A stretch of 64,000 nucleotides of DNA. It comes from Trematomus loennbergii (taxonomy: Eukaryota > Chordata > Actinopteri > Perciformes > Nototheniidae). The translations under genes and the position numbers were made by a program. Of the stretch, positions 1 through 50,315 are shown piece after piece. How positions within the stretch are numbered: the first letter of the stretch is position 1; every line of letters begins with the position of its first letter. The stretch is from positions 62,001 to 126,000 of the forward strand of contig JAAOOA010001148.1 in assembly GCA_012861695.1 (NCBI GenBank), given 5' to 3'. The notes beneath the pieces were generated by a model. It saw only the letters and a list, made by a program, of their open reading frames with translations. It did not search any database and was not told where the DNA came from.

Positions 1-50
<50 letters not shown>

Positions 51-61
51 GAGAGAGAGAC

Positions 62-111
<50 letters not shown>

Positions 112-937: not shown

Positions 938-1176
938 GGCTCTGTAAGGAAGTCTGAAGGAAGGGGCAGATTTTTTTCGGTTGTGTACTTTCAAATTCTA
1001 GCTTACTCTAGCTGGTTTCTCCATTCTTACCTACCCTACCTTTAAGCTCACACACACTATTGTATGGACATATACTGTATGTTCACCTGTTCTCACAAAT
1101 AATAAAATAATTTAGATTATGAGCTCAAAAAATTAACTAAACAGGGAATATGAAAGAATCAAATTGAAGAACTCAC

Positions 1177-2001: not shown

Positions 2002-2097
<96 letters not shown>

Positions 2098-2932
2098 TGA
2101 CTCCAGAATCAAAGTGTCACTCACCATCAAAGCAAATTGAAAGTTGTGTGGTGGTGCACTGTCTGACAAACAGTGTCCCGTTGTTGAAGGCTCCACAGCT
2201 GAAACCAGTATCTTTTGCATGTACCAAATTAAATACTCTCTTTCTCCCTTCTTGTAGAAATCTTTTTCAGTTATGGACCAGTGCCACCTCTGCTCCCCTT
2301 TCATGAGTCCTATCCACACGGCATCATCGTACTGGCCCTCAACAGATCTCAGCACTGTTTCAATATCTCCCAGGTCCTCTATGGTGGCAAGGTCGAGACA
2401 ATTCTCTCTGCAGAAACTCTGAGCCTCTCGCCAGGTTTTCTTTTCTTTGAATAAGACAAACTCAGGTTGTTGGTTGAGTACACATGAGGACAGAGAGCAC
2501 AGCGCTGTGGGAGAGAAGCCATGGAGATACATTTCAACTGAAAAATACAATAAACATACTCAAATTATATTCAATTACACTTTTATATTTTAAGAGCCAT
2601 TTAAATTATGATTTGAATTGATTGATTGATTGATTTAGTTAGTGCATGATTAAGTTAGTTTTGTTAACTGATTAATGTAGTAATTGATTGAGTTAATGAT
2701 TGGTTAATTGGTTGGTTTGATATCTGGAGGAGAGAAACTGTGTAATAGAAAATCAAAAACATGCTGCAGCTGAGAGAAACTACAGTATTGTGACAAATGA
2801 TCATTTACATCCTTGTAAGTCACATTGGTTTGTCAAACGAAAGCTAATGTTTATTCAGAGACTGTTCACTTAGAGAAAGTAAAAGGAGTTACACTTACCT
2901 GAAAGTAGAATGAGATTTAGAATCCAATCCAT
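1177..2932 (-). pseudogene. C-type lectin-like gene, copy A (two CTL domains, frameshifted)
   Basis: Three exons read right to left. Exon 1 (2932-2899) encodes a signal peptide beginning MDWILNLILL and ends at a GTAAGT donor. Exon 2 (2537-2125) follows a TTTTTCAG acceptor and encodes the first CTL domain, with the WIGL motif and its cysteines, ending at GTGAGT. Exon 3 (1519-1177) encodes the second domain, with WVGL and the terminal FLCKC. All junctions are phase 1. The layout matches the secreted two-CTLD lectin-like proteins of fish, which bind carbohydrate or other ligands outside the cell; the ligand here is unknown. Exon 2 lacks one base near 2213 and exon 3 lacks two near 1411, so the frame breaks twice. 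The WxxxxC cysteine of domain 2 is missing. A last short exon below 1177 may exist but is not resolved. Copies B and C carry different breaks, so consensus error is an alternative to true decay. Confidence 0.75.
2004..2095. repeat. (GT)n microsatellite in intron 2 of lectin copy A
   Basis: About 46 GT dinucleotides lie just downstream (in gene sense) of the exon 2 donor. The same intronic tract is 24 bp long in copy B (45764-45787) and about 48 bp in copy C (58914-58961). It is therefore a shared, length-variable marker of the triplication. Confidence 0.95.
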
Positions 2933-3583
2933 AACTCTGATGAGGCGGAGAAAGCAAGATTTAGTTATACTGCAATACAATTGTTGAAAGACTGAATTTA
3001 ACAGACAAAGTTCAAGATTTAAAAGTGGGATTAGCTCATGAAATAGTTGACCAAATGCCCAAAAATGATAGCATGATTTTTAACATATTGAGATTTAATA
3101 ATAAAAAGATGAACAACTGATTTACCTGACGTATGCTAAGTCTTCACTGGTCAATTGTTGATTGCATTGTCTGTGTCTTTTCTTCTTAAAAATAATATCT
3201 ATGTTATTTGTTCAGCTCTGAATCCCTCTCTCCTCTGTGATCACAGGGCTATATGGTTATGTAGTTTGAACATACATGAATACATGGGTTGAGTTTACAT
3301 CCAGTGTCTCATATCCATATACAAATGTTTCTTCCTCTTATGTAAACGTGCAATCTCTGGAACGTGTACAATGCAAACTTTATTATAATAATGTTCAAGG
3401 GCAAAGTAAAGATACATACACACCTAACAACATCTATTTACATTTGTTGTACTAGACAGATATAGGGCTTGATTACCGACGAGCCCTGGTAAAAAGAATA
3501 TTTTTTATTGGTAGGTGCTTGTAATATTTATTATTCACCACAACATAATGCAGTACAATGTTTTGGGGAAATATTTTCCAAGG
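2933..3583. other. 5' flank of lectin copy A
   Basis: AT-rich DNA upstream of the lectin start. It is shared with copies B (49121-49720) and C (59801-60175), and parts recur at 35920-36190 and 61000-61280. No coding sequence is seen. The similarity of all three flanks shows that the duplicated unit includes the probable promoter region. The palindromic element begins at its distal end. Confidence 0.6.
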
Positions 3584-3589
3584 CCCATA
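3584..3589. repeat. Left target-site duplication of the palindromic element (CCCATA)
   Basis: CCCATA directly precedes AGTAGTAATAC and is repeated at 18479-18484 just after the other terminus. A paralogous locus without the insert (49721-49735) reads AGGCCCATAAATTTG, so one copy of the hexamer is the pre-insertion state. Confidence 0.8.
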
Positions 3590-3671
3590 AGTAGTAATAC
3601 AAATACTGTTTCAATCACATTAGTATGCATAAAAAGTGACAGGTCACACCTGCCTCATCAGTACTACTACT
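3590..3671. promoter_or_regulatory. Terminal segment able to fold (AGTAGTA end paired with an internal copy)
   Basis: The terminal 11 bases AGTAGTAATAC are complementary in 10 of 11 positions to GTACTACTACT at 3661-3671. The last about 80 bp can therefore form a hairpin stem. The right terminus has the same arrangement (18397-18407 with 18468-18478). The trinucleotide repeat at the tip resembles the sliding-back starts of protein-primed replicons. Its role as an origin is inference. Confidence 0.45.
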
Positions 3672-3726
3672 TATGCTAATGAGCCCCTTTGATATGCTAA
3701 TGAGCCCCTTTGTTCGAGGTGTTATC

Positions 3727-4211
3727 ACATGTAGTGTGTGACATTCCCCCATTGTAGTAGATCCTTTGTTGTGTAATCTAATTAGCCTTTGATGTCTGAT
3801 CCCTTTGTTGTCTATCCTTTGATGTGAGGGTGAGGTGTTTGTGACATGTAGGTGTGATATCCCTTGTTGTAGTAGATCCTGTGTGTATAATCTAATTAGC
3901 CTTTGATGTCTGCCCCCTTTTGTTGTCTAATCTAATTACCCTTTGATGTCTATCCTTTGATGTGAGGGATGGGGTGTTTGTAACATAGGTGTTAACTCCC
4001 CATTGTAGTAGATCCTTTGTTGTATAATCTAATTAGCCATTGATGTCTGACCCCTTGTTGTCTAATCAAATTAGCCCTTTGATGTCTGTCCTTTGATGTA
4101 AGTTGGGAGGTGTTATAACATGTAGGTGTGTGTATGCACCGGTGTGTTATAAGCCTTTGATGTCAATCTAATTAGCCCTTTGATGTATGTCCTTTGATCA
4201 GTGTTTGTGAT
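3727..4211. repeat. Subterminal tandem array, about four 90-140-bp units (left)
   Basis: Imperfect units contain CATGTAGGTGTG, TTGTAGTAGATCC, AATCTAATTAGCC and TTTGATGTCTG in order. Units start near 3727, 3843, 3982 and 4118, and the last is shortened. The array lies just inside the terminus, where replication or integration proteins might bind. No coding sequence is seen. Confidence 0.75.
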
Positions 4212-4416
4212 TAGTGTTAAGGTAGTCTCTTTGAAGTTGTGTGAGACTGTCTCGCACCCCGTCCTCCTCTCACCTCTACCCCCTCTCACCCCTTCCCCTT
4301 CCTTTTGCTGTGATGTCAGAAGATAGAGGTGGAGGGTGGAGTTAGATGAAAAATAAAATCCGTGCAAACTAGATAAAAAGCCACTCACCAAGTCACCTAA
4401 ACTTTCAAAAACGAAA

Positions 4417-4554
4417 ATGGCAAAGAGACGCATCGATATGGGTTTAATCAGCGAGACGCCTGTGACAACTTACCGCCATCCGTCGGGAGCGCCAGTCAAG
4501 AAACGGATGCAGTTTCTGTGCCGGGTTCAGACCCTCCGTCTGGGCTCTTCATGA
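4417..4554 (+). CDS. Short ORF near the left terminus (45 codons)
   Basis: Starts MAKRRIDMGL and is basic (many Lys/Arg). It stops after 45 residues. In the right arm the same start opens a 79-residue frame because of one extra base near codon 43, so the true C-terminus is uncertain. The ATG sits in AAAATGGC, a good start context. It is flanked by repeated AAGTCACCTAAA boxes (4390, 4671). The family is not recognised; it may be a first exon or a chance frame. Confidence 0.3.
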   Translation: MAKRRIDMGLISETPVTTYRHPSGAPVKKRMQFLCRVQTLRLGSS

Positions 4555-4679
4555 AAAATGGAGTCTGGATGTGTGAGACTGTCTCCCCTCCCTCCCCTCC
4601 CACCCCACCCCTCCCCTCCCCCAGCCGGTCACCTCTTGATTTGGCTATCAGCCATTAATTTTCACTCACCAAGTCACCT

Positions 4680-6004
4680 AAAACTTTTATTGTCCTCTCT
4701 AAATTAGATTAGTTTTAATATGATTTGTGTTAACTATGGATGTTCTCTTAAGTTGTAGGGCTTGTGAACTAATGTTTAATTATTTTACTAACTACAACAA
4801 AGTCTCTTTGAGAGGAAAATAATAATTTAAAGATCTTAATGACCCCTTGATCTTGTCTTTTTATTGTTTAATTACTTTATTAACTATAAGGAAGATTTAC
4901 TGGTATGCTTCCCTAGATGATGTAAATAGTCCAAGTGCCATGTTAGGGGGACATTACGGAACTCAGGAGTCCGCCCTTTGAGGCGTTGTTAACATTAATG
5001 CTTTTGTTTTTGTTACTAAGATACTTTTTTAGATACACTTTTGAAGTGAGCAATACTTTACAACTGGTAGAAAGTTAAGTACTTGTATGGAATTGGGTTT
5101 TCTTTTAGAGCTGTTTTCAGTGAGACAATGCAGTTTCTGATCATTTTAAGTTTTCAAGTTTCAAGGCTTTATGGCATATGCCCATTAGCTACAGTGTAGA
5201 TATGTCAATGAAAAACATAGGTCACAGGCTCCTCCAACACTGCAACATATATATATATATATATATAGAGCACATAAAACAGATAAAATACTGCAATAGA
5301 GTGTTTTGATATGACAGATTTGTGCGTAATTCTCTCACAAAGGAACTGTAAGATACACGTTTATGTATGGAAAACTTTATAACTTGGTAAAATATTCATT
5401 CATTTGTAATGAATTACTTGACTAACATTACTTTTTTTAAATATATGTTTTTAGATGCTTTACTTTTGATTTCTTTCATGTTATTTTAACACAACATTAC
5501 TTTTTTCATATTTTTCAACATACTGTGATATTTGTTTTTTCCCTCCTTTTTCCATTATATTTTTGAATATACAGTGATTTTTATCAAAATACAACATGCA
5601 ACTATTACATTATACAATATTACGACTTTTTGCGATATTTTCAACACAATATACTTTTTTTGTAGGGCTTCAGGATATGTGGCATGTCATGCATAAAACC
5701 GGTGTCATCTTTCCTGAAACTGACGTGCTGTCCGTTTTACAAACAAGTTATCTTTCTGCTTCTTCACCCTCTGAATTTTCCTCCCCCGTCCCTCTTCCTT
5801 CAGCCATCACAACAATAATCAAGTCAGATCTTTGAAATTAAACACCTCTTCCCAAAGCGTGACTTCCCTATTGAGGGAGTGGGGCAGTAGGGCCTAACCC
5901 GATTGGCCAAATATACTAATATGCATAACGTATGGTATGTTTGAAAAAACTAACCATCTATCCAGTTCAAGCTGTCTTTAAGATGTGACATTGCGCTATG
6001 ACTT
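4680..6004. other. AT-rich non-coding part of the left arm
   Basis: No convincing gene is seen. Copies of the AAGATACTTTTTTAGATACAC / ACAACTGGTAGAAAGTTAAG repeat at 5020-5110 and 5340-5400 recur at 7680-8440. An (AT)n run lies at 5250-5267. A LINE-like tail occupies about 5150-5262 in inverse orientation. The region is mirrored at 16070-17400. Confidence 0.6.
5150..5262 (-). repeat. LINE-like 3' tail fragment inside the viral-like arm
   Basis: Read in reverse, TGTTGGAGGAGC ... CTACACTGTAGCT ... GCATATG matches the host repeat at 40145-40245, which continues into an AT-rich tail. A host-type retroposon tail is thus embedded in the arm and mirrored near 16810-16915. It was present before the palindrome formed. 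Confidence 0.55.
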
Positions 6005-6274
6005 TTTCCCCGTAAAATCGTGACAAACTATTACTTATTCTTAAATTTGACCTCTTGCTGCTGGTTGAAAATGATAGATGAAAAATAACTTTTTAAAAAG
6101 AGTCAAACAGCGAGGGACATTATACGGGTGAAAGAAACTCTCATTTCTACAGATGACTCCCCCCCCTCAATGCAATAAGTCCCACCCCAATCAGCAAATC
6201 ATCCAAAACTAAGGACCCCACTAAGACGACCGTTGAAAACTAGCCATGGATCTGAGAAAAACCAAGTCTGATGT
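6005..6274 (+). promoter_or_regulatory. Leader cassette 1 (upstream of ORF1, left arm)
   Basis: About 270 bp, near-identical in two blocks to 8512-8757: a distal block with GTAAAATCGTGACAAACTA, and a proximal block from TTCTACAGATGACTCCCC through GAAAACTAGCC. It ends inside the ORF1 start (MDLRKTKS). An upstream ATG at 6151 gives a 19-codon frame that closes before ORF1. TTCTACAG just before that ATG resembles a 3' splice site. Promoter function is inferred from position and duplication. Confidence 0.55.
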
Positions 6275-7346
6275 AGCCTACCCTTATTATCACCAGGATA
6301 ACGGATATGGGCTTAATGACTGGATGTTACAAAGTAAGGGAGAGGATGTTCCCGAAGAAGAGCTTTCCTCTATATCATATCCATGTAAGGTCTTTAGGAC
6401 AAAAGAGGACTATGATAAAATGACATATGAAGAATATCTTTCTTTAAAAGATGGTATTATAGATAACCTTTATAGAAACAATATATCTCATACAACTCGC
6501 CAAGATCGCAAACGACAATTAGCAGAAAAGAAAAGCAAAAGTAAAGAAAACCGAAGAAAAAGAAAAAGCAAAATGAAAAGGAGAAGAAAAATGAAAAGCA
6601 AACGCAGAATGCGAATGAAAAGAAAAGGGACAATAGGACGGAAAAAGACAAAAAGAAGGAAGGTGAAAAGAAAAAGGAACAAAGTGAAGAAATTTCAACT
6701 AACTATAGAGGATGCTGATAGTGTTGTAGAGCCATTACTGGATCATAATAATCTTATAGATCATCTACCGCTAACCGACTGCTGCGAATGTGTTGAACAA
6801 ATACCAAAAGCAATGGCAGAGCTCTGCTTCAATATAATGAGAGAAAAAGCACGATACTGTGGAATTGCCCAAATTGGCGACAGTGCCAGAACATGTATTA
6901 AAAGACTGTTGGAGGATCTCTATTCTAGTATCGGTTGTCATTACAGCGAAGGATATGCCAAAACGTGTGATGACATAGACAAAGCTTTTGAAGACAATTA
7001 TATGGTACCCGTCCTTACAGCTAAACAAATCCTATGCCAGGTATTCAACAGACCACAAGAAGCACAAGAAGCCCCAGAAAGGATTACATTCAGAGCTAAT
7101 AATGGTGAAACCGAAGAAGAAGCAAAGCAGATTATAATCGTTGCGGGTGAAAGGATAGAGAATTTGCAAGTGATGTTAATGCACTTATCTGATATAAAAA
7201 ATGCATTCATTTACTTCCAAGAGACCCCTAAACATCTACTTGGGCAATGTGAATTGAACGATAAACCGATCACTGTAAATGAAACGCGGAGAGAAGCAGC
7301 AGTGCAAATCGTTAAGTCTATTACCTTGTATGCACTACGACATTAA
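6246..7346 (+). CDS. ORF1: 366-aa protein with a long Lys/Arg-rich tract, family unknown
   Basis: The frame runs from ATG in GCCATGG to TAA. Residues 1-85 are acidic and polar and rich in Tyr. Residues about 86-150 are almost entirely Lys and Arg with scattered Ser/Met, like a nucleic-acid-binding or nuclear/nucleolar-targeting segment. Residues 155-366 look helical and globular, with a cysteine cluster (TDCCECVEQ) and further cysteines around 200-260. No polymerase, integrase, helicase or capsid motif is seen. The first residues come from the leader cassette shared with ORF2, where the same DNA is read as internal codons. The right-arm copy is broken by two single-base losses. A nucleic-acid-condensing or chromatin-associated role is only an inference from composition. 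Confidence 0.7.
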   Translation: MDLRKTKSDVAYPYYHQDNGYGLNDWMLQSKGEDVPEEELSSISYPCKVFRTKEDYDKMTYEEYLSLKDGIIDNLYRNNISHTTRQDRKRQLAEKKSKSKENRRKRKSKMKRRRKMKSKRRMRMKRKGTIGRKKTKRRKVKRKRNKVKKFQLTIEDADSVVEPLLDHNNLIDHLPLTDCCECVEQIPKAMAELCFNIMREKARYCGIAQIGDSARTCIKRLLEDLYSSIGCHYSEGYAKTCDDIDKAFEDNYMVPVLTAKQILCQVFNRPQEAQEAPERITFRANNGETEEEAKQIIIVAGERIENLQVMLMHLSDIKNAFIYFQETPKHLLGQCELNDKPITVNETRREAAVQIVKSITLYALRH

Positions 7347-7515
7347 CTTGGTCAAATGTAATATGTCTTTCTGAAAATGTGGCGAATGGTGTGTTTTTCA
7401 ATTAAGCAACCATAACAAATGAAAATGTGTTTTATTTTTGCTTTCATATATAGTAATAGTATTAATTCCTTTGACTAGACTGTACTAAAATAAGACGTTT
7501 CACTGTTAAATAAAA

Positions 7516-7653
7516 ATGGAAGTAGAAAATCGAGATAATGATGAGGTTCGTTATGTATCCAGTAACTATGAACAGCAGTTGAAAATGTTATTTAACCCTT
7601 TAACTCTAATAGACAAATCTAAAATAGCCTCTAGCTTATCTATAAGTTTGTGA
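7516..7653 (+). CDS. Small ORF downstream of ORF1 (45 codons, left arm)
   Basis: Begins MEVENRDNDEV in the context TTAAATAAAAATGG, which is nearly the same as the start of ORF3 (AAAATAAAAATGG). It ends in TGA and is identical in the right arm. The N-terminal half is acidic. It lies 169 bp after ORF1, just as ORF3 follows ORF2, so the two gene pairs have a parallel layout. No family is recognised. Conservation of an uninterrupted frame in both arms is weak support, because the arms are nearly identical anyway. Confidence 0.35.
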   Translation: MEVENRDNDEVRYVSSNYEQQLKMLFNPLTLIDKSKIASSLSISL

Positions 7654-7669
7654 TTTTAACACTTATTCA

Positions 7670-8511
7670 CTGACACAAGGCAGATTTTGGCTTTTTTCTC
7701 TTGCCAAGATACTTTTAGACACACTTTGAGGTATGCAAAACCTTAAAACTAGAAAATGAAGTACATTGTCTGATTAGATTTTTCTTAAAGACTGTTTCTC
7801 TAAAAGGCAAGTTTTGTGATTTTTAACACTTATTTACTGACACAAGGCAGATTTTGACTTTTTTTTCTCTTTTCTTGTGTTACCAAGATACTTTTAGATA
7901 CACTTTAATGTATGCAACACTTAACAAAAGGGTATAATATGCAGTACTTTGTAAGGAATGGGGGTTTCTTTAATACCCCGTTTTTTATTTTTAAAAACAC
8001 TTGTACAGTTAAATAATGTAGGTTTTCTCTGATATTTTAGTTATTTTCAGCTACCAAGATACTTTTTTGATACACTTTTATGTAGGAACATTTGGCAACT
8101 GGTAGAATGTCAATTATTTTGTAACAAAATGTATTTTCTTAAAGACTGTGACTCTAAAAGGGAAGTTTTATTTTTTTTCTCCCGTTGTCTTTTTGGATAC
8201 AGTTTTATGTATGATAACTTTACAACTGGTAGAAAGTTAAGTACTTTTTCTGAACAGATTTTCTTTAAGACTGTGACTCTTAAAGGTAAGACAATCCAGT
8301 TTTATGGAAGTAACTTAAATTATTTTTTGTTTTTCTCCTACAAAGATACTTATAGTTACACTTTAATGGATGCAAAACTTTATAACTTGGTAAAATATTC
8401 ATTATTTTGTAATGAATTGAGTTTTCTTTTTTGTTTTTGTTTTTCAACATACTATTGTACACAATGACTTTTCCATATATATATTTTTTTTTTCAGACAA
8501 ACTATACTTTT
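7670..8511 (+). repeat. Degenerate 110-160-bp tandem repeats between ORF1 and ORF2 (left arm)
   Basis: Five or so units, each with CCAAGATACTTTTAGATACAC, TATGCAAAACTT, ACAACTGGTAGAAAGT and TTTCTTAAAGACTGTGACTC in order, near 7700, 7880, 8060, 8190 and 8340. Related units lie at 5020-5400. They precede leader cassette 2 and could be enhancer-like. The reading frame at 8129-8467 is a by-product. Confidence 0.65.
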
Positions 8512-8757
8512 GACTTTTTCCGTAAAATCGTGACAAACTATTACTTATTCTTAAATTTGACCTCTTGCTGCTTGGTTGGAAATGATAGATGAAAAAGCTA
8601 CAAAGCTTAAAGAACTTTTCTAAAAACTCTCAATTCTACAGATGACTCCCCCCACTCAACGCAATAAGTCCACCCCCCACTCAGCAAATCAGCTAAAACG
8701 AAGGACCCCACTAAGACGACCGTTGAAAACTAGCCAGGATCTGAGAAAAACCAAGTC
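8512..8757 (+). promoter_or_regulatory. Leader cassette 2 (upstream of and into ORF2, left arm)
   Basis: Second copy of the cassette seen at 6005-6274. Here the ATG after TTCTACAG opens a frame that continues through the cassette, giving ORF2 a basic, Thr/Pro-rich N-terminus of about 40 residues. In front of ORF1 the same stretch is closed by stops. Confidence 0.55.
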
Positions 8758-9298
8758 TCCCCCTGCGAGTTGCAGCCAGGAACAAACTCCTGGACTACTA
8801 TCGTCACCACCATTGTGGACACCCAAATCTTGCAGTACTACAGCTGCTGATGTTACTCCTGGGGCCAAGACGTCTCTGTTTTTGAACATAGTGAAATCGG
8901 AGTTGGTTGATATTCTGGAGAGGGTGCTGGATCGGTACAGAGAAGAAATCTGCAATGGATGCCGAGTCAGTCACCCCGGCCAGAGGCAACACGATTGTCT
9001 GAATGACATTCCAGAATATTTCTTCAGAAACAATTACAACGCGTTAATGAAAAGACTTTGGCTCGCCGACTTCATTACTGCGATTGACCAGAGTCTTAAT
9101 GATAAAAACATTTACACGGCTGAATGGAGGATCCAAGGCGCTTCGGAGGCTTTTCTGCACAATCTCAAAACTGCAGACGCCTCAAGGAGAGACTTGAAAA
9201 GATCCATGTCGAGCTGGATGGATAGGAAGAAGACTAATAACCAGCGGTTGATTGAAGCCAGGGATTTTTTTCGATACTTTGACTTTTCTTTAAAGTAA
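8642..9298 (+). CDS. ORF2: 218-aa protein with a Cys/His cluster, family unknown
   Basis: The frame opens at ATGACTCC and ends TAA. Residues 1-45 are basic and low in complexity and come from the shared leader cassette. Residues 46-75 are Ser/Pro-rich. Residues about 80-218 look globular and helical. A compact cluster, CxxC followed by HPxQxxHxC (about residues 103-119), looks like a metal-binding knuckle. I have a vague memory of similar motifs in uncharacterised metazoan and virus-like proteins but cannot verify it. The stop lies 7 bp before the ORF3 start, suggesting a shared transcript. The right-arm copy is full length but differs at residues 33-40 through two compensating indels. Confidence 0.65.
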   Translation: MTPPTQRNKSTPHSANQLKRRTPLRRPLKTSQDLRKTKSPPASCSQEQTPGLLSSPPLWTPKSCSTTAADVTPGAKTSLFLNIVKSELVDILERVLDRYREEICNGCRVSHPGQRQHDCLNDIPEYFFRNNYNALMKRLWLADFITAIDQSLNDKNIYTAEWRIQGASEAFLHNLKTADASRRDLKRSMSSWMDRKKTNNQRLIEARDFFRYFDFSLK

Positions 9299-9305
9299 AA
9301 TAAAA

Positions 9306-9854
9306 ATGGGTAACTACTATGGAAAACAATCTGTATATATCTATCAGAATGCAGTCAATACCTGTTTAATAAGTGTGTTGTTGATGACGATTGAAAACAG
9401 AATGAGTAGTGATCCCTGTGTAAACAGAACGGCTGAAGTTTGTAAACTAGAAGACATTTTGGATATCGTTCATTCTGGCAGTACTATTCCGGGTCATTGG
9501 GAAACGATTGTAAACGAAACATTTAAAGTGGTACTGGAATCTTCATTTTCCGAAACATTCTGTAACATTACCGAAGAAATTAAACAAACACCAAAAGTGT
9601 ATCATGTGCTCGCATTGTATGCTCTGTTTGTAGATGTAATGCATCTTTGTGTCAAAAACAGCATACACATGAATATTTGGCCGAAGTGCAAAAACTCCAT
9701 TATAATATTTCCCTTCATCTGGGGGATTCTGTGCTGGAGAAGATCCTGGGGATGTTGCAATCAGTATAAATGTATTATTGATTCCTATGGGGTGAAAACA
9801 ATAAATTGTAAATATGAAATTCTGCAAATAAAAAAAGTGTTTTTTACATTTTAA
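9306..9854 (+). CDS. ORF3: about 155-180-aa protein, family unknown (frame differs between arms)
   Basis: Starts MGNYYGKQSV 7 bp after ORF2, in AAAATAAAAATGG. The body is mostly predicted helix, with cysteines and several N-glycosylation-like sequons (NRT, NET, NIT). The extended C-terminus from about residue 121, ending at 9854, is Trp/Cys/Ile-rich and looks frame-shifted: one base is missing relative to the right arm near 9681. In the other frame a stop occurs at 9767-9769, followed by AATAAA signals near 9800 and 9828. A signal peptide is not evident. Function is unknown; a death-pathway regulator was considered and not supported. Confidence 0.5.
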   Translation: MGNYYGKQSVYIYQNAVNTCLISVLLMTIENRMSSDPCVNRTAEVCKLEDILDIVHSGSTIPGHWETIVNETFKVVLESSFSETFCNITEEIKQTPKVYHVLALYALFVDVMHLCVKNSIHMNIWPKCKNSIIIFPFIWGILCWRRSWGCCNQYKCIIDSYGVKTINCKYEILQIKKVFFTF

Positions 9855-10339
9855 AAAACTGTTGTCTTCAAATCATAGTATAGTATTTCCTACATATCAT
9901 TTAAAAAAAAAGAGTCACAGTGTAGAATGTCCGAACATTTATTTTAAAAGTACTAGTATAGTATGTTAAAAGTATCTTGAAAAAAGTCCAAGTATAGTAT
10001 GTAGTTAAGAATTATATTATATAGTTTGTCTGCAATGTCAGTATAGGATCTCTAAAAAAAAAAAAAAAAATGAGAGAAAGTCATAGTATAGTTTGACAAA
10101 AAGATCTTGAAAAAGTCATGACATTGTGTGTTGAAATGGTTTTGAATAAACACGACAAAAAGATCTTGAAAAGTCATGACATTATGTGTTGAAATGGTTT
10201 TGAATAAACACATCAGTATTTTTAAAAAAGTAAAATGGTATCAAGTGCATCAGACAACTCAAATTACTCAATTTGAACCATATTATAAATAAGTAAAGAA
10301 TGGTCATAGTATATAACAGGGCTGTTTAATAGTTTTCGG
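9855..10339. other. AT-rich repeats between ORF3 and the CAGTGTTT array (left arm)
   Basis: Non-coding. CATAGTATAGT-like boxes recur (9875, 9954, 10083). Two near-identical 55-bp units (AAAAGATCTTGAAAA ... GGTTTTGAATAAACAC) lie at about 10097-10150 and 10154-10207. AATAAA in these units could serve as poly(A) signals. Mirrored at 11745-12307. Confidence 0.55.
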
Positions 10340-10658
10340 CGTTTCAGTGTTTTAGTGTTTTCAGTGTTTCAGTGTTTCAGGGTTTTGTGTGTCAGTGTTT
10401 CAGTGTTTCAGTGTTTTGTGTGTCAGTGTCAGTGTGTCAGTGTTGCAGTGTTTCAGTGTTTTGTGTGTCAGTGTTTCAGTGGTTCAGTGTTTTGTGTGTC
10501 AGTGTTTCAGTGTGTCAGTGTTTTGTGTTTTTGTGTTTCAGTGTTTTTGTGTGTCAAAGTTTTCAGTGTTTCAGTATTTCAGTGTTTCGGTTTTTCAGTG
10601 TTTCAGTGTCAGTGTGTCAGTGTTTCAGTGTTTCAGTTTTCAGTGTGTCAGTGTTTAC
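10340..10658 (+). repeat. CAGTGTTT satellite, left side of the axis
   Basis: Low-complexity array built from CAGTGTTT and TTTTGTGTGT words in shifting order. All forward frames are open only because stop codons are rare in the motif, giving Cys/Val/Ser/Phe/Gln-rich nonsense proteins. It is less than half as long as its mirror copy. Confidence 0.9.
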
Positions 10659-11002
10659 AGCCTTGCTTTGCTCTGATCAATCCCCAGGATCCTCCCCTGG
10701 AAGGAATATAGCAGGACGAGAGAAAAACATTTAAAAAAAAACGTATCTTAGAGGTGGCTATAGCATCTGATGCAATTCTAAAAGATAGTCAGATTCCTAA
10801 AAAGTTACAAACGGATGATGGAAACATTTGTTTCCATCATCCGTTTGTAACTTTTTAGGAATCTGACTATCTTTTAGAATTGCATCAGATGCTATAGCCA
10901 CCTCTAAGATACGTTTTTTTTTTTAAATGTTTTTCTCTCGTCCTGCTATATTCCTTCCAGGGGAGGATCCCTGGGGATTGATCAGAGCAAAGCAAGGCTG
11001 TA
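10659..11002. repeat. Symmetry axis of the palindrome, two-base loop
   Basis: The inverted arms meet at GGAAACA-TT-TGTTTCC, with the centre between 10827 and 10828. About 165 bp on each side pair almost perfectly before the satellite begins. A junction with essentially no spacer is expected from fold-back replication or template-strand switching at a replication fork, rather than from two independent insertions. Confidence 0.95.
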
Positions 11003-11739
11003 AACACTGACACACTGAAAACTGAAACACTGAAACACTGACACACTGACACATTGACACACAAAACACTGACACTGAAACACAAAACACTGAAATACTG
11101 AAACACTGAAAACACTGACACACTTAACACAGAACACTTACACACTGACACATTGACACACAAAACACTGAAACACTGAAATACTGAAACACTGAAAACA
11201 CTGACACACAAAACACTGAAACACTGACACACTGCAACACTGCAACACTGAAACACAAAACACTGCCACACTGACACATTGACACACAAAACACTGAACA
11301 CTGAAATACTGAAAACACTGAAAACACTGACACACAAAAAAACACAGAAGCACAAAACACTGAAACACTGAAACATTGAAACACTGACACACAAAACACT
11401 GACACACTGAAACACTGAAACACAAAACACTGAAACACTGAAAACTGAAACACTGACACATTGACACACAAACACTGAAACACTGAAAAACCGAAACACT
11501 GAAATACTGAAACACTGAAAACTTTGACACACAAAAACACTGAAACACAAAAACACAAAACACTGACACACTGAAACACTGACACACAAAACACTGAACC
11601 ACTGAAACACTGACACACAAAACACTGAAACACTGCAACACTGACACACTGACACAGACACAAAACACTGAAACACTGAAACACTGACACACAAAACCCT
11701 GAAACACTGAAACACTGAAAACACTAAAACACTGAAACG
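11003..11739 (-). repeat. CAGTGTTT satellite, right side of the axis
   Basis: Reverse-complement copy of the array at 10340-10658, expanded to about 740 bp with an added TTTTGTGTTTC-rich middle. Unequal length between otherwise matching arms indicates slippage after the palindrome formed, or assembly collapse on one side. Confidence 0.9.
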
Positions 11740-12307
11740 CCGAAAACTATTAAACAGCCCTGTTATATACTATGACCATTCTTTACTTATTTATAATATG
11801 GTTCAAATTGAGTAATTTGAGTTGTCTGATGCACTTGATACCATTTTACTTTTTTAAAAATACTGATGTGTTTATTCAAAACCATTTCAACACATAATGT
11901 CATGACTTTTTCAAGATCTTTTGTCGTGTTTATTCAAAACCATTTCAACACACAATGTCATGACTTTTTCAAGATCTTTTTGTCAAACTATACTATGACT
12001 TTCTCTCATTTTTTTTTTTTTTTTAGAGATCCTATACTGACATTGCAGACAAACTATATAATATAATTCTTAACTACATACTATACTTGGACTTTTTTCA
12101 AGATACTTTTAACATACTATACTAGTACTTTTAAAATAAATGTTCGGACATTCTACACTGTGACTCTTTTTTTTAAATGATATGTAGGAAATACTATACT
12201 ATGATTTGAAGACAACAGTTTTTTAAAATGTAAAAAACACTTTTTTTATTTGCAGAATTTCATATTTACAATTTATTGTTTTCACCCCATAGGAATCAAT
12301 AATACAT
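11740..12307. other. AT-rich repeats next to the axis (right arm)
   Basis: Mirror of 9770-10339, with the same duplicated 55-bp unit and CATAGTATAGT-like boxes. No gene is seen; the frame at 11866-12066 is a by-product. Confidence 0.55.
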
Positions 12308-12771
12308 TTATACTGATTGCAACATCCCCAGGATCTTCTCCAGCACAGAATCCCCCAGATGAAGGGAAATATTATAATGGAGTTTTTGCACTTCGGCCAA
12401 AATATTCATGTGTATGCTGTTTTTGACACAAAGATGCATTACATCTACAAACAGAGCATACAATGCGAGCACATGATACACTTTTGGTGTTTGTTTATTT
12501 CTTCGGTAATGTTACAGAATGTTTCGGAAAATGAAGATTCCAGTACCACTTTAAATGTTTCGTTTACAATCGTTTCCCAATGACCCGGAATAGTACTGCC
12601 AGAATGAACGATATCCAAAATGTCTTCTAGTTTACAAACTTCAGCCGTTCTGTTTACACAGGGATCACTACTCATTCTGTTTTCAATCGTCATCAACAAC
12701 ACACTTATTAAACAGGTATTGACTGCATTCTGATAGATATATACAGATTGTTTTCCATAGTAGTTACCCAT
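12308..12771 (-). pseudogene. ORF3, right-arm copy (frameshifted)
   Basis: Same start as the left-arm ORF3, but one base is missing near 12502, so the frame closes at 108 residues (12445). Near 12400 this copy has the extra T that the left arm lacks. The two arms are thus broken at different places. This is what independent decay or independent consensus errors would give. Confidence 0.6.
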
Positions 12772-12778
12772 TTTTATT

Positions 12779-13435
12779 TTACTTTAAAGAAAAGTCAAAG
12801 TATCGAAAAAAATCCCTGGCTTCAATCAACCGCTGGTTATTAGTCTTCTTCCTATCCATCCAGCTCGACATGGATCTTTTCAAGTCTCTCCTTGAGGCGT
12901 CTGCAGTTTTGAGATTGTGCAGAAAAGCCTCCGAAGCGCCTTGGATCCTCCATTCAGCCGTGTAAATGTTTTTATCATTAAGACTCTGGTCAATCGCAGT
13001 AATGAAGTCGGCGAGCCAAAGTCTTTTCATTAACGCGTTGTAATTGTTTCTGAAGAAATATTCTGGAATGTCATTCAGACAATCGTGTTGCCTCTGGCCG
13101 GGGTGACTGACTCGGCATCCATTGCAGATTTCTTCTCTGTACCGATCCAGCACCCTCTCCAGAATATCAACCAACTCCGATTTCACTATGTTCAAAAACA
13201 GAGACGTCTTGGCCCCAGGAGTAACATCAGCAGCTGTAGTACTGCAAGATTTGGGTGTCCACAATGGTGGTGACGATAGTAGTCCAGGAGTTTGTTCCTG
13301 GCTGCAACTCGCAGGGGAGACTTGGTTTTTCTCAGATCCTTGGCTAGTTTTCAACGGTCGTCTTAGTGGGGTCCTTCGTTTTAGCTGATTTGCTGAGTGG
13401 GGGGTGGACTTATTGCGTTGAGTGGGGGGAGTCAT
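12779..13435 (-). CDS. ORF2, right-arm copy (218 aa)
   Basis: Full-length copy of ORF2 with the Cys/His cluster and helical C-terminus intact. Residues about 33-39 differ from the left arm because one base is gained near 13340 and one lost near 13314. Between them the frame shifts and then returns. The base count at the first site agrees with leader cassette 1, so the right-arm form may be the older one there. The stop lies 7 bp from the ORF3 start. Confidence 0.62.
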   Translation of the reverse strand: MTPPTQRNKSTPHSANQLKRRTPLRRPLKTSQGSEKNQVSPASCSQEQTPGLLSSPPLWTPKSCSTTAADVTPGAKTSLFLNIVKSELVDILERVLDRYREEICNGCRVSHPGQRQHDCLNDIPEYFFRNNYNALMKRLWLADFITAIDQSLNDKNIYTAEWRIQGASEAFLHNLKTADASRRDLKRSMSSWMDRKKTNNQRLIEARDFFRYFDFSLK

Positions 13436-13565
13436 CTGTAGAATTGAGAGTTTTTAGAAAAGTTCTTTAAGCTTTGTAGCTTTTTCATCTATCATTTCCA
13501 ACCAAGCAGCAAGAGGTCAAATTTAAGAATAAGTAATAGTTTGTCACGATTTTACGGAAAAAGTC
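13314..13565 (-). promoter_or_regulatory. Leader cassette 2, right-arm copy
   Basis: Inverted copy of 8512-8757, giving the N-terminal codons of right-arm ORF2 and its upstream block with GTAAAATCGTGACAAACTA. Confidence 0.5.
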
Positions 13566-14410
13566 AAAAGTATAGTTTGTCTGAAAAAAAAATATATATA
13601 TGGAAAAGTCATTGTGTACAATAGTATGTTGAAAAACAAAAACAAAAAAGAAACTCAATTCATTACAAAATAATGAATATTTTACCAAGTTATAAAGTTT
13701 TGCATCCATTAAAGTGTAACTATAAGTATCTTTGTAGGAGAAAAACAAAAAATAATTTAAGTTACTTCCATAAAACTGGATTGTCTTACCTTTAAGAGTC
13801 ACAGTCTTAAAGAAAATCTGTTCAGAAAAAGTACTTAACTTTCTACCAGTTGTAAAGTTGTCATACATAAAACTGTATCCAAAAAGACAACGGGAGAAAA
13901 AAATAAAACTTCCCTTTTAGAGTCACAGTCTTTAAGAAAATACATTTTGTTACAAAATAATTGACATTCTACCAGTTGCCAAATGTTCCTACATAAAAGT
14001 GTATCAAAAAAGTATCTTGGTAGCTGAAAATAACTAAAATATCAGAGAAAACCTACATTATTTAACTGTACAAGTGTTTTTAAAAATAAAAACGGGGTAT
14101 TAAAGAAACCCCCATTCCTTACAAAGTACTGCATATTATACCCTTTTGTTAAGTGTTGCATACATTAAAGTGTATCTAAAAGTATCTTGGTAACACAAGA
14201 AAAGAGAAAAAAAAAAGTCAAAATCTGCCTTGTGTCAGTAAATAAGTGTTAAAAATCACAAACTTGCCTTTTAGAGAAACAGTCTTTAAGAAAAATCTAA
14301 TCAGACAATGTACTTCATTTTCTAGTTTTAAGGTTTTGCATACCTCAAAGTGTGTCTAAAAGTATCTTGGCAAGAGAAAAAAGCCAAAATCTGCCTTGTG
14401 TCAGTGAATA
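13566..14410 (-). repeat. Degenerate tandem repeats (right arm)
   Basis: Mirror of 7670-8511, with the same units in the same order and few differences. Non-coding. Confidence 0.65.
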
Positions 14411-14420
14411 AGTGTTAAAA

Positions 14421-14558
14421 TCACAAACTTATAGATAAGCTAGAGGCTATTTTAGATTTGTCTATTAGAGTTAAAGGGTTAAATAACATTTTCAACTGCT
14501 GTTCATAGTTACTGGATACATAACGAACCTCATCATTATCTCGATTTTCTACTTCCAT
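14421..14558 (-). CDS. Small ORF, right-arm copy (45 codons)
   Basis: Identical in sequence to the small ORF at 7516-7653, with the same TTAAATAAAAATGG start context. Family unknown. Confidence 0.35.
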   Translation of the reverse strand: MEVENRDNDEVRYVSSNYEQQLKMLFNPLTLIDKSKIASSLSISL

Positions 14559-14727
14559 TTTTATTTAACAGTGAAACGTCTTATTTTAGTACAGTCTAGT
14601 CAAAGGAGTTAATACTATTACTATATATGAAAGCAAAAATAAAACACATTTTCATTTGTTATGGTTGCTTAATTGAAAAACACACCATTCGCCACATTTT
14701 CAGAAAGACATATTACATTTGACCAAG

Positions 14728-15826
14728 TTAATGTCGTAGTGCATACAAGGTAATAGACTTAACGATTTGCACTGCTGCTTCTCTCCGCGTTTCATTTACA
14801 GTGATCGGTTTATCGTTCAATTCACATTGCCCAAGTAGATGTTTAGGGGTCTCTTGGAAGTAAATGAATGCATTTTTTATATCAGATAAGTGCATTAACA
14901 TCACTTGCAAATTCTCTATCCTTTCACCCGCAACGATTATAATCTGCTTTGCTTCTTCTTCGGTTTCACCATTATTAGCTCTGAATGTAATCCTTTCTGG
15001 GGCTTCTTGTGCTTCTTGTGGTCTGTTGAATACCTGGCATAGGATTTGTTTAGCTGTAAGGACGGGTACCATATAATTGTCTTCAAAAGCTTTGTCTATG
15101 TCATCACACGTTTTGGCATATCCTTCGCTGTAATGACAACCGATACTAGAATAGAGATCCTCCAACAGTCTTTTAATACATGTTCTGGCACTGTCGCCAA
15201 TTTGGGCAATTCCACAGTATCGTGCTTTTTCTCTCATTATATTGAAGCAAGCTCTGCCATTGCTTTTGGTATTTGTTCAACACATTCGCAGCAGTCGGTT
15301 AGCGGTAGATGATCTATAAGATTATTATGATCCGTAATGGCTCTACAACACTATCAGCATCCTCTATAGTTAGTTGAAATTTCTTCACTTTGTTCCTTTT
15401 TCTTTTCACCTTCCTTCTTTTTGTCTTTTTCCGTCCTATTGTCCCTTTTCTTTTCATTCGCATTCTGCGTTTGCTTTTCATTTTTCTTCTCCTTTTCATT
15501 TTGCTTTTTCTTTTTCTTCGGTTTTCTTTACTTTTGCTTTTCTTTTCTGCTAATTGTCGTTTGCGATCTTGGCGAGTTGTATGAGATATATTGTTTCTAT
15601 AAAGGTTATCTATAATACCATCTTTTAAAGAAAGATATTCTTCATATGTCATTTTATCATAGTCCTCTTTTGTCCTAAAGACCTTACATGGATATGATAT
15701 AGAGGAAAGCTCTTCTTCGGGAACATCCTCTCCCTTACTTTGTAACATCCAGTCATTAAGCCCATATCCGTTATCCTGGTGATAATAAGGGTAGGCTACA
15801 TCAGACTTGGTTTTTCTCAGATCCAT
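14728..15826 (-). pseudogene. ORF1, right-arm copy, broken by two single-base losses
   Basis: The N-terminal 166 codons, including the Lys/Arg tract, match the left arm to about 15332, where one base is missing. A second base is missing near 15258. The C-terminal part is open again from 15237 to the stop at 14728. In the left arm the same gene is a single 366-codon frame. Either this arm has decayed, or these are consensus errors; both losses are one base. Confidence 0.7.
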
Positions 15827-16069
15827 GGCTAGTTTTCAACGGTCGTCTTAGTGGGGTCCTTAGTTTTGGATGATTTGCTGATTGGGGTGGGACTTATTGC
15901 ATTGAGTGGGGGGAGTCATCTGTAGAAATGAGAGTTTCTTTCACCCGTATAATGTCCCTCGCTGTTTGACTCTTTTTAAAAAGTTATTTTTCATCTATCA
16001 TTTTCAACCAGCAGCAAGAGGTCAAATTTAAGAATAAGTAATAGTTTGTCACGATTTTACGGGGAAAAA
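15797..16069 (-). promoter_or_regulatory. Leader cassette 1, right-arm copy
   Basis: Inverted copy of 6005-6274 upstream of right-arm ORF1, with the same conserved blocks. Confidence 0.5.
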
Positions 16070-17400
16070 GTCATAGCGCAATGTCACATCTTAAAGACAG
16101 CTTGAACTGGATAGATGGTTAGTCTTTTTTCAAACATACCATACGTTATGCATATTAGTATATTTGGCCAATCGGGTTAGGCCCTACTGCCCCACTCCCT
16201 CAATAGGGAAGTCACGCTTTGGGAAGAGGTGTTTAATTTCAAGATCTGACTTGATTATTGTTGTGATGGCTGAAGGAAGAGGGACGGGGGGAAAATTCAG
16301 AGGGTGAAGAAGCAGAAAGATAACTTGTTTGTAAAACGGACAGCACGTCAGTTTCAGGAAAGATGACACCGGTTTTATGCATGACATGCCACATATCCTG
16401 AAGCCCTACAAAAAAAGTATATTGTGTTGAAAATATCGCAAAAAGTCGTAATATTGTATAATGTAATAGTTGCATGTTGTATTTTGATAAAAATCACTGT
16501 ATATTCAAAAATATAATGGAAAAAGGAGGGAAAAAACAAATATCACAGTATGTTGAAAAATATGAAAAAAGTAATGTTGTGTTAAAATAACATGAAAGAA
16601 ATCAAAAGTAAAGCATCTAAAAACATATATTTAAAAAAAGTAATGTTAGTCAAGTAATTCATTACAAATGAATGAATATTTTACCAAGTTATAAAGTTTT
16701 CCATACATAAACGTGTATCTTACAGTTCCTTTGTGAGAGAATTACGCACAAATCTGTCATATCAAAACACTCTATTGCAGTATTTTATCTGTTTTATGTG
16801 CTCTATATATATATATATATGTTGCAGTGTTGGAGGAGCCTGTGACCTATGTTTTTCATTGACATATCTACACTGTAGCTAATGGGCATATGCCATAAAG
16901 CCTTGAAACTTGAAAACTTAAAATGATCAGAAACTGCATTGTCTCACTGAAAACAGCTCTAAAAGAAAACCCAATTCCATACAAAGTACTTAACTTTCTA
17001 CCAGTTGTAAAGTATTGCTCACTTCAAAAGTGTATCTAAAAAAGTATCTTAGTAACAAAACAAAAGCATTAATGTTAACAACGCCTCAAAGGGCGGACTC
17101 CTGAGTTCCGTAATGTCCCCCTAACATGGCACTTGGACTATTTACATCATCTAGGGAAGCATACCAGTAAATCTTCCTTATAGTTAATAAAGTAATTAAA
17201 CAATAAAAAGACAAGATCAAGGGGTCATTAAGATCTTTAAATTATTATTTTCCTCTCAAAGAGACTTTGTTGTAGTTAGTAAAATAATTAAACATTAGTT
17301 CACAAGCCCTACAACTTAAGAGAACATCCATAGTTAACACAAATCATATTAAAACTAATCTAATTTAGAGAGGACAATAAAAGTTTTAGGTGACTTGGTG
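16070..17400. other. AT-rich non-coding part of the right arm
   Basis: Mirror of 4680-6004, with an (AT)n run at 16805-16820 and the LINE-like tail at about 16810-16915. No gene is seen. Confidence 0.6.
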
Positions 17401-17408
17401 AGTGAAAA

Positions 17409-17648
17409 TTAATGGCTGATAGCCAAATCAAGAGGTGACCGGCTGGGGGAGGGGGGTGGGGTGGGAGGGGAGGGAGGGGAGACAGTCTCACACATCCAGA
17501 CTCCATTTTTCATGAAGAGCCTCAGACGGAGGGTCTGAACCCGGCACAGAAACTGCATCCGTTTCTTGACTGGCGCTCCCGACGGATGGCGGTAAGTTGT
17601 CACAGGCGTCTCGCTGATTAAACCCATATCGATGCGTCTCTTTGCCAT
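17409..17648 (-). CDS. Short ORF near the right terminus (79 codons)
   Basis: Mirror copy of the left-arm short ORF. The first 42 residues are the same. The frame then runs on into a proline- and serine-rich tail translated from a C-rich tract, which looks non-native. One extra base relative to the left arm accounts for the difference. No known family is recognised. Confidence 0.28.
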   Translation of the reverse strand: MAKRRIDMGLISETPVTTYRHPSGAPVKKRMQFLCRVQTLRLRLFMKNGVWMCETVSPPSPPTPPPSPSRSPLDLAISH

Positions 17649-17859
17649 TTTCGTTTTTGAAAGTTTAGGTGACTTGGTGAGTGGCTTTTTATCTAGTTTG
17701 CACGGATTTTATTTTTCATCTAACTCCACCCTCCACCTCTATCTTCTGACATCACAGCAAAAGGAAGGGGAAGGGGTGAGAGGGGGTAGAGGTGAGAGGA
17801 GGACGGGGTGCGAGACAGTCTCACACAACTTCAAAGAGACTACCTTAACACTAATCACA

Positions 17860-18345
17860 AACACTGATCAAAGGACATACATCAAAGGGCTAATTAGATT
17901 GACATCAAAGGCTTATAACACACCGGTGCATACACACACCTACATGTTATAACACCTCCCAACTTACATCAAAGGACAGACATCAAAGGGCTAATTTGAT
18001 TAGACAACAAGGGGTCAGACATCAATGGCTAATTAGATTATACAACAAAGGATCTACTACAATGGGGAGTTAACACCTACATGTTACAAACACCCCATCC
18101 CTCACATCAAAGGATAGACATCAAAGGGTAATTAGATTAGACAACAAAAGGGGGCAGACATCAAAGGCTAATTAGATTATACAACACAGGATCTACTACA
18201 ACAAGGGATATCACACCTACATGTCACAAACACCTCACCCCTCACATCAAAGGATAGACAACAAAGGGATCAGACATCAAAGGCTAATTAGATTACACAA
18301 CAAAGGATCTACTACAATGGGGGAATGTCACACCTACATGTGATA
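17860..18345. repeat. Subterminal tandem array (right)
   Basis: Inverted counterpart of the left subterminal array, with the same unit order and very few differences. It lies at the same distance from the right terminus. Confidence 0.75.
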
Positions 18346-18478
18346 ACACCTCGAACAAAGGGGCTCATTAGCATATCAAAGGGGCTCATTAGCATAAGTA
18401 GTAGTACTGATGAGGCAGGTGTGACCTGTCACTTTTTATGCATACTAATGTGATTGAAACAGTATTTGTATTACTACT

Positions 18479-18484
18479 CCCATA
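18479..18484. repeat. Right target-site duplication (CCCATA)
   Basis: Second copy of the hexamer at 3584-3589, immediately outside the right AGTAGTA terminus. Confidence 0.8.
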
Positions 18485-25619: not shown

Positions 25620-25760
25620 GTGAGTAATAACTTGTGTCTAACATAATATTCAATGTGGTTTAGTAAAGTATTTAAAAATACCCCACATTGTACATGTACA
25701 GGACAATCAGACCTTTTTCAACAAAGATCATCACACTACGGTGGCCCGGAAGTGCAAGAC

Positions 25761-46810: not shown

Positions 46811-46820
46811 TAACCCCCCC

Positions 46821-48836: not shown

Positions 48837-49734
48837 GTTAGTGATTGGTTTGTTAACTGATTAATGTAGTAATTGATTGAGTTAATGATTGGTTAATTGG
48901 TTGGTTTGATATCTGGAGGAGAGAAACTGTGTATAGAAAATCAAAAACATGCTGCAGCTGAGAGAAACTATAGTATTGTGACAAATGATCATTTACATCC
49001 TTGTAAGTCACATTGGTTTGTCAAACGAAAGCTAATGTTTATTCAGAGACTGTTCACTTAGAGAAAGTAAAAGGAGTTACACTTACCTGAAAGTAGAATG
49101 AGATTTAGAATCCAATCCATAACTCTGATGAGGCGGAGAAAGCAAGATTTAGTTATACTGCAATACAATTGTTGAAAGACTGAATTTAACAGACAAAGTT
49201 CAAGATTGAAAAGTGGGATTAGCTCATGAAATAGTTGACCAAATGCCCAAAAATGATAGCATGAAGAGTTTTATTTTTAACATATTGAGATTTAATATTA
49301 AAAAGATGAACAACTGATTTACCTGACGTATGCTAAGTCTTCACTGGTCAATTGTTGATTGCATTGTCTGTGTCTTTTCTTCTTAAAAGTAATATCTATG
49401 TTATTTGTTCAGCTCTGAATCCCTCTCTCCTCTGTGATCACAGGGCTATATGGTTATGTAGTTTGAACATACATGAATACGTGGGTTGAGTTCGCATCAA
49501 GTGTCTCATATCCATATACAAATGTTTCTTCCTCTTATGTAAAACGTGTGACCTCTGGATCATGTTAAATAAAAAGATATAGGGCTTGATTACCGACGAG
49601 CCCTGGTAATGTTACTCAAATGGATGGAAATCTTTTTTATTGGTAGGTGCTTGTAATATTATTATTCAACACAACACAATGCAGTACAATGTTTTGGGGA
49701 AATAATTTCCTAGGCCCATAAATTTGAAGTTTTT

Positions 49735-50315
49735 ACTGCCCTCGCTGAGCACAGGTGTGCTTTGTCTCCTTATTCCTGCCTGTTGGCGTCAGCTGATAGA
49801 GGTGTCTTATTGCTTTGCCTGATCTATCTGTGCACAATGTTGATTATTCTCTTGTCACCAGCTAAATACAAGGCTCTGGGGTAGAGACCTTGAGGATTGG
49901 TTGGGATACCGCCGTGTCAACTTCTGGCTGCAGCAAATGTCTTTGTCAATTCTCCATCCGTAACTTCAAATAAATCTTCAGTGCTTGCCATCAAGCTCAA
50001 GCTCTCCCCGTGTTTCATTGTGTTTCGACTACATGCTCCAGAAGTTTCCATTACACAATGCAACACCCTATAATTAGCATCACGTAAGTTAACCATAAAG
50101 TCAAAATCCACACTTATTGTTTCCCACCAAAGGATATTTGTTAACATGGGGTAAATTAGCCCAGTTACAAGTGTTAAAACGTACCTATTGAAGTCTATCC
50201 TTTAGGCAAGGCAAGGCAAGGCAAGTTTATTTATATAGCACCTTTCAACACAAGGCAATTCAAAGTGCTTTACAAAAATGAAAGACATTAAGAAAATGGC
50301 ATTTAAAACAGTCAT
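49735..50315 (+). repeat. LTR-like fragment and retroposon tail, second copy
   Basis: Nearly identical to 37720-38320. The junction at 49721-49735 (AGGCCCATAAATTTG) preserves the target site that is occupied by the palindromic element at 3584-3590 in module A. Confidence 0.6.

Follow-up and report, generated by a model that had tools for sequence, protein, structure and literature searches.

Introduction

What kind of element consists of one transposon end written twice? We address this question for a 64,000-nucleotide stretch of the Trematomus loennbergii genome (positions 62,001 to 126,000 of contig JAAOOA010001148.1; hereafter the window), in which a 14,889-bp palindrome occupies positions 3590-18478. 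Our analysis makes it very probable that this element is a helper-dependent, non-autonomous palindromic satellite of Maverick/Polinton transposons, and that it arose through a single snap-back and has since multiplied in palindromic form. According to the available text of PMC8097293, vertebrate Mavericks have (AGT)2//(ACT)2 or similar ends, 6-bp target-site duplications (TSDs) and a constrained size. Their mode of replication is argued there from the polymerase and the end motifs, the repetition of the end motif is expected to allow jumping-back when replication is protein-primed, and particles were unobserved as of that account.

Results

A preliminary description of this locus had reported inverted arms of about 7.2 and 7.6 kb meeting at a two-base loop, and a global alignment of the arms bears this out, with 7201 identical columns and 11 substitution columns, seven of which fall in one 8-base block (10161-10168). 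The arms are separated by 30 gap events, the loop itself not counted; 29 of these are 1-4 bases long, many in homopolymers, and the remaining one, of 423 bases, is a length difference of the GTTTCAGT minisatellite. Indels outnumber substitutions between the arms, an excess that looks like long-read assembly error, and indels of this kind would explain why the open reading frame (ORF) ORF1 is whole in the left arm and split in the right. Both ends read 5'-AGTAGTAATAC, which confirms the AGTAGTA terminus described for both arms, and the 6-bp direct repeat said to bound the element is indeed found on both sides as CCCATA. The flanks had been regarded as unrelated; they are instead the two sides of one insertion site, as an uninterrupted paralogue in the window indicates (Table 1), where CCCATA occurs once, at 49715-49720, and GGCCCATAA lies at 49713. 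The element is inserted within a duplicated segment of the window.

The genome (1.21 Gb in 3566 contigs, denoted here by C-numbers) contains 122 matches to PF03175 (DNA polymerase B, PolB). Around one of them, on C687, lies a Polinton of 14,364 bp with identical ends (AGTAGTGTTACCAATCCCGCTTCA) and the TSD TACAAT, whose further genes include those for a Pox_A32-type ATPase (E 1.2e-8) and an integrase of the rve type (E 1.6e-13). The product of a 185-aa ORF has a sub-cut-off Pfam match to adenovirus protease (E 0.0027); two ORFs of 455 and 302 aa have no Pfam match and may be the capsid genes, judging from their position, where such genes are expected. Read inwards, the right end of this Polinton is collinear with the palindrome arm (tblastx linked E 3e-53; Table 1), and the matching DNA pieces are 71-92% identical. 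The left end matches the arm in no more than the terminus and one short piece near arm 1211-1286. The full-length relative that had been anticipated, one containing an arm together with PolB and integrase, therefore exists, and it is a PolB/integrase Polinton rather than a member of a different transposon class.

The axis of the palindrome lies in what remains of an integrase gene. No complete rve-type integrase gene is present in the element; some 33-37 codons are left at the axis, and they match residues 139-171 of the C687 integrase (60.6% identity over 33 aa, E 3e-6). The fold falls in the core domain of the integrase, downstream of the TDAG motif with its second catalytic residue. Furthermore, the ORF2 region is homologous to a 273-aa ORF beside the integrase of the C687 Polinton (36%, E 2e-35). 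Five arm ORFs matched no Pfam family at the cut-off (best sub-cut-off match E 0.048), tblastn of the ATPase, protease-like, 455-aa and 302-aa ORFs of C687 against the arm reached no better than E 0.12, and PF03175 has no match on the window's contig or in the fold-back spans examined, among the matches listed. The earlier statement that all core genes are lacking is thus correct in that no complete core gene was found, and needs amending for the roughly 33 codons of integrase core domain that remain. Protein searches recovered one short ENA relative for ORF1 and four for ORF2. Neither ORF matched in a PDB sequence search, neither these ORFs nor the C687 integrase had relatives in IMG/VR (two terminus-pattern matches there have nothing else in common with the arm), and a phage collection search gave no match. 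The AlphaFold model of ORF1, built from one sequence, was poor (mean pLDDT 42.7).

The element is derived from a Maverick/Polinton: (AGT)2//(ACT)2 termini, a 6-bp TSD and Polinton-derived sequence are all present. It also has the architecture of a snap-back genome: it carries one and the same terminus twice, with viral sequence from the interior at the fold. The snap-back Maverick/Polinton-like origin first suggested is supported by the collinearity with C687, the similar terminus and the position of the axis within the integrase.

The preliminary description treated the palindrome as a single integrant; it belongs instead to a family of copies, which rules out a one-off event. With the arm's first 2 kb as query (40 of 3632 first-look candidates scored), at least 104 pieces of the genome match, many of them in opposite pairs. 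Eleven pairs were noted besides the window, and ten were fetched, C140 being left out. Two long inverted arms are present in nine of these, in several cases with one side cut short towards the centre; the tenth, C399, consists of a full arm plus 1.0 kb of a second. All 11 paired copies, the window included, have AGTAGT at both ends, and in ten of them the 6-bp TSD is perfect and different each time. Of three unpaired matches that were also fetched, C33 and C1367 proved to be palindromic, and C1148:131720 is built like C399. Copies were chosen for ends paired in the opposite sense, with inner sequence outside the choice; the inner arms, the TSDs and the genome-wide junction counts are independent of it.

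We then compared fourteen element centres, and the axis-proximal sequence of the window stops at the same place in the other 13 (in C33 on one side only, where an inverted remnant was looked for and not found). In the three older-type centres read (C116, C960 and C1367), a stem matching the integrase up to ALLKK is followed by a loop of ~31 nt and then by the reverse complement of the stem, the integrase frame containing a stop codon or shift; we call this junction older because the integrase loop is retained. In the other centres the loop is mostly lost and an off-centre remnant is left, and eight copies retain 18-42 bp of the shortened arm at an axis. In the window even the loop remnant is symmetrical, which we read as conversion through the axis. 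With up to three mismatches allowed, 155 places in the genome match the older junction and 36 match the trimmed form, and the reversed controls match nowhere; these are counts of matches, not elements, since C28, C115, C652 and C1944, at the least, each hold two trimmed matches. Some contigs are possibly duplicate haplotypes, as the PolB matches of C1142 and C1606 stand at identical coordinates. C1944 contains two opposed axes and a new centre, and in C28 and C115 opposed axis matches lie 69 bases apart around the element midpoint (from positions only, the sequence being unread). We take these opposed axes for later fold-backs.

The termini tell a similar story genome-wide. Allowing up to two mismatches, the genome contains 276 matches to the 27-base Polinton terminus and none to the control, and 37 pairs were formed from the first 100 of the matches listed, all of them exact. 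Eight of these pairs hold PolB (spans of 15.0-16.3 kb), ten hold a fold-back junction, none holds both, and 19 hold neither, among the matches listed. The ends of a PolB element were read directly in C687 alone; that others share them follows from this terminus search. Within the ten fold-back spans, the junction is placed at 0.114, 0.446, 0.473, 0.486, 0.497, 0.498, 0.499, 0.500, 0.502 and 0.507 of span length. For a second terminus pattern, AGTAGTNATACAAAT..., 793 matches compare with 32 for its control; because this pattern admits the C687 terminus at two mismatches, the two terminus counts overlap. From 92 of the first 100 of its termini listed, none of the 92 within 20 kb of a PolB place, 33 pairs were formed. 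Among the matches listed, 16 of these hold the trimmed axis at 0.39-0.56 of their length, and three more hold the older junction, at ~0.68 (C116), ~0.29 (C229) and ~0.52 (C460), as computed by hand. The median span is 13,987 and 23 of the 33 spans are within 13.0-15.6 kb, among the matches listed, compared with 14.4 kb for the C687 Polinton and 15.0-16.3 kb for the PolB pairs.

Next, substitutions were counted against the window's left arm as shared by both arms or private to one; sites with two different changes, one in each arm (0-2 per element), were excluded, as was C399 with its short second arm. The shared/private numbers were 106/5 in C1944, 103/12 in C773, 99/12 in C21, 104/14 in C94 and 77/20 in C116, and 3/10 in C960, 0/7 in C127 and 0/3 in C739; the assembly has indel errors, and polishing of near-identical copies could create or hide such arm differences. 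C1944, C773, C21 and C94 have large insertions and deletions compared with the window, in each case in both arms. Over the outer 1000 bases, nine of the 11 elements show 0-6 substitutions between their arms. These comparisons suggest that the arms evolve together in most, not all, elements. Over the same outer bases, the left arms of four elements (those of the window, C127, C739 and C399) are free of substitutions relative to one another, so movement is recent. C127 and C960 have sites in common at which one arm is in the state of other lineages and the other arm in that of the window (one such site is found in C739, none in the window), and the palindrome was therefore seemingly copied whole.

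Several copies depart from the palindromic form or carry additional sequence. C399 and C1148:131720 retain 18-24 bp of inverted sequence past the axis and then jump to arm ~1004. C15:1988700-1995230 is a 6.2-kb single-arm member with an 87-bp terminal inverted repeat (TIR) and the perfect TSD TATACC; its inner junction resembles a short fold-back inside the minisatellite, followed by the terminus. The C346 copy has inverted arms with foreign sequence in its centre, where (341-2074 of the fetched stretch) a 578-aa ORF looks tyrosine recombinase-like by eye and has no Pfam match at E 0.01. The arms of C1944 and C773 hold a segment absent from the window's arm, which in C773 includes a 108-aa ORF (3718-4041 of the fetched stretch) with no Pfam match. 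Additionally, four exact termini lie on the same strand of C16, inside a stretch of 0.6 Mb (23563854, 24048259, 24102545 and 24142991), partnerless among the matches listed; they are perhaps a duplicated half element.

Discussion

We propose that the family began with a fold-back during protein-primed replication. An ancestral Polinton strand, unfinished or displaced, would have ended in the integrase gene, ~2.7 kb from the right terminus. Its 3' end would have folded back with a ~31-nt loop and copied its own strand to the end, giving a hairpin; priming at the single terminus and copying round the loop would then have produced a double-stranded palindrome that ends in this terminus on either side. 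Such a founding product would be a linear palindrome carrying the integrase-side terminus twice and no complete core gene. Having (AGT)2 at both ends, it could be copied by the protein-primed polymerase of intact Polintons and inserted by their integrase with 6-bp TSDs, so that Polinton proteins would supply both copying and integration in trans; the copy number and the shared termini suggest that replication depends on a helper. The arms would since have been enlarged by a duplicated leader, further ORFs and the minisatellite, back toward Polinton length. Because the spans are near that length although a bare snap-back gives only ~5.4 kb, we infer selection by a packaging size limit. Arm-to-arm conversion would keep the arms alike in tracts, most simply through hairpin formation by the displaced strand and mismatch repair, and an occasional new fold-back would also even the arms.

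The fold-back might instead have been chromosomal, with a break in an integrated Polinton, fold-back by host repair and mobilization of the product by Polinton proteins. The little microhomology and the ~31-nt loop at the junction could also result from host repair. However, the element ends in an exact Polinton terminus on both sides, as follows directly from a linear molecule that has one terminus, whereas fold-back copying in a chromosome would be expected to continue into the host flank, and the secondary central axes in C1944, C28 and C115 suggest repeated fold-back in the element's own cycle. Such an origin appears improbable.

We find it highly improbable that the single-arm forms with shorter TIRs (C399, C1148:131720 and C15) are the normal element and the palindromes their by-products. 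Two sister single-arm copies do share one structure, and C15 has a perfect TSD; however, C399 and C1148:131720 descend from palindromes, since they keep 18-24 bp beyond the axis, and the older junction has 155 matches in the genome.

An assembly artefact, in which palindromic missing-adapter long reads or terminal-repeat collapse created the fold-back, would fit the predominance of small indels between the arms, which is typical of long-read error. It would not account for two different flanks with a TSD and an empty paralogous site, for one junction with the same loop matched so many times, for axes that mostly lie near the middle of terminus pairs, or for lineage-specific substitutions common to both arms. 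Since the palindrome recurs at sites with distinct TSDs (ten of the 11 paired copies), this explanation is very unlikely indeed. That the element belongs to another class of ordinary DNA transposons, one with very long TIRs, is barely credible: 6-bp TSDs and long inverted repeats also occur in other classes, and none of the five arm ORFs has a Pfam family at the cut-off, but PolB spans and fold-back spans have 27 identical terminal bases, the axis holds an integrase relic and the ORF2 region has a homologue among the Polinton ORFs.

Some observations weigh against our preferred reading, a palindromic satellite founded by one snap-back and dependent on Polintons. The element is known here from its sequence, and the C687 Polinton, at its level of identity to the arm, need not be the helper of this lineage. 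The inverted outer arms of the fetched copies are partly a matter of choice, because copies were picked by opposed ends. The single-arm forms exist, C116 has no perfect TSD (GACATG/GACAGT), and some axes are off-centre (0.11 in one C86 span, ~0.29 in C229 and ~0.68 in C116). Homogenization is poor in C86 (34 shared and 64 private substitutions; 32 substitutions between the outer arms in 767 columns) and in the outer 1 kb of C116 (198 in 835 columns). The arm differences that C127 and C960 share argue against a strict cycle that regenerates one arm every round, and we reject such a cycle. Finally, both the arm comparisons and the counts could be blurred by errors of assembly, by polishing and by contigs that are duplicate haplotypes.

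Defective genomes with a similar architecture are known among viruses. Adenovirus snapback genomes consist of one terminus and part of the genome folded back, and they need a helper. Adeno-associated virus (AAV) uses Rep and hairpin inverted terminal repeats, not a protein primer. As far as the available text of PMC8235507 goes, AAV snapback genomes replicate with helper functions in symmetric and asymmetric forms; our element is like them in having one terminus and part of a genome folded back and in both forms, and it presumably needs a helper too. Unlike the snapbacks of either virus, the palindrome described here is integrated and forms a dispersed family. A yeast hairpin plasmid was reportedly obtained by Kikuchi in 1985 from a protein-capped linear plasmid by fold-back of one end; that plasmid is cytoplasmic and neither integrated nor dispersed by an integrase, unlike the present element. 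Non-autonomous DNA transposons, including miniature inverted-repeat transposable elements (MITEs), move in trans through the ends of an autonomous partner. In contrast to MITEs, the element is mostly 13-15.6 kb long, has ORFs, is near helper size and was probably founded by a snap-back rather than by internal deletion. With vertebrate Mavericks/Polintons, as characterized in the available text of PMC8097293, it has in common the (AGT)2 end, the 6-bp TSD, inverted termini, a homologue of the integrase-adjacent ORF and an integrase fragment. It differs from them in being palindromic, with both ends from the integrase side, and no PolB, ATPase, protease or capsid gene was found in it. Titles and abstract openings of the open-licence literature contained no description of a palindromic Polinton among the matches listed, and the string 'palindrom' is absent from the available texts of PMC8097293 and PMC6431247.

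Maverick replication has possibly left a footprint here: a fold-back junction at a defined position, fixed in the germline. Judging from this family, the kind of copying error seen in defective virus genomes can give rise to a lineage that persists and spreads; the family also offers a natural case of palindrome upkeep through arm-to-arm conversion. Element sizes near that of the helper are compatible with a packaging limit. More tentatively, the family could be a self-perpetuating palindromic satellite virus, with a hairpin intermediate, packaging by the helper, insertion of the full palindrome, its own evolved genes and a helper-like genome size. Its convergent ORFs may yield hairpin RNA that includes the integrase segment and so might act on the helper. 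Screens that start from integrase and polymerase matches on one contig, as in the available text of PMC8097293, would probably miss such a family.

Features of the window

Table 1. Palindrome, insertion site and arm segments matched by the C687 Polinton. Positions are those of the window unless given as arm positions.
Feature	Position	Strand	Remarks
Left TSD CCCATA	3584..3589	.	identical to 18479-18484
Left arm	3590..10826	+	7237 bp; inverted copy of 10829-18478
Terminus, arm 1-155	3590..3744	+	81% identity to both C687 Polinton ends
Subterminal tandem repeats, 114-140 bp units	3716..4130	+	mirror ~17936-18352
ORF1, 366 aa, no known domain	6246..7346	+	right arm: split, 14728-15237 and 15314-15826, minus
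ORF2, 218 aa	8642..9298	+	right-arm copy 12779-13435, minus
ORF3, 182 aa, unknown	9306..9854	+	shorter in right arm, 12445-12771, minus
GTTTCAGT minisatellite	10341..10656	+	mirror 11002-11738, longer
Integrase core domain relic, arm 7135-7233	10724..10822	+	mirror ~10833-10933, minus; ended by axis
Axis of symmetry, two-base loop	10827..10828	.	
Right arm	10829..18478	-	7650 bp
Same terminus, right arm	18324..18478	-	mirror of 3590-3744
Right TSD CCCATA	18479..18484	.	identical to 3584-3589
Paralogous empty target site	49575..50013	+	joined flanks align across junction, 73%
C687 right end 1-155	arm 1-155		81%
C687 right end 912-1164	arm 2462-2680		72%
C687 right end 1056-1329	arm 5057-5235		two pieces, 76-77%
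C687 right end 1504-1827	arm 5260-5583		protein level
C687 right end 2529-2627	arm 7135-7233		protein level

The host region around the insertion is duplicated inside the window (937-3310 and 57848-60179, also 44708-50019), with ~97% identity over 2.4 kb, and ORFs in the left flank resemble C-type lectin domains, as judged by eye. At paralogous sites near 36195 and 61286, inserts of ~1.5 kb begin just beyond CCCATA and have no sequence in common with the arm. Elsewhere in the window, a 3-kb array of 20-bp units (27178-30222) contains ~154 copies of TGAAATGCTGTTGTGTTTTC and shows strong strand asymmetry, with a GC skew of up to 0.56; a shorter 20-bp array at 25759-26212 looks like the inverse of a related unit.

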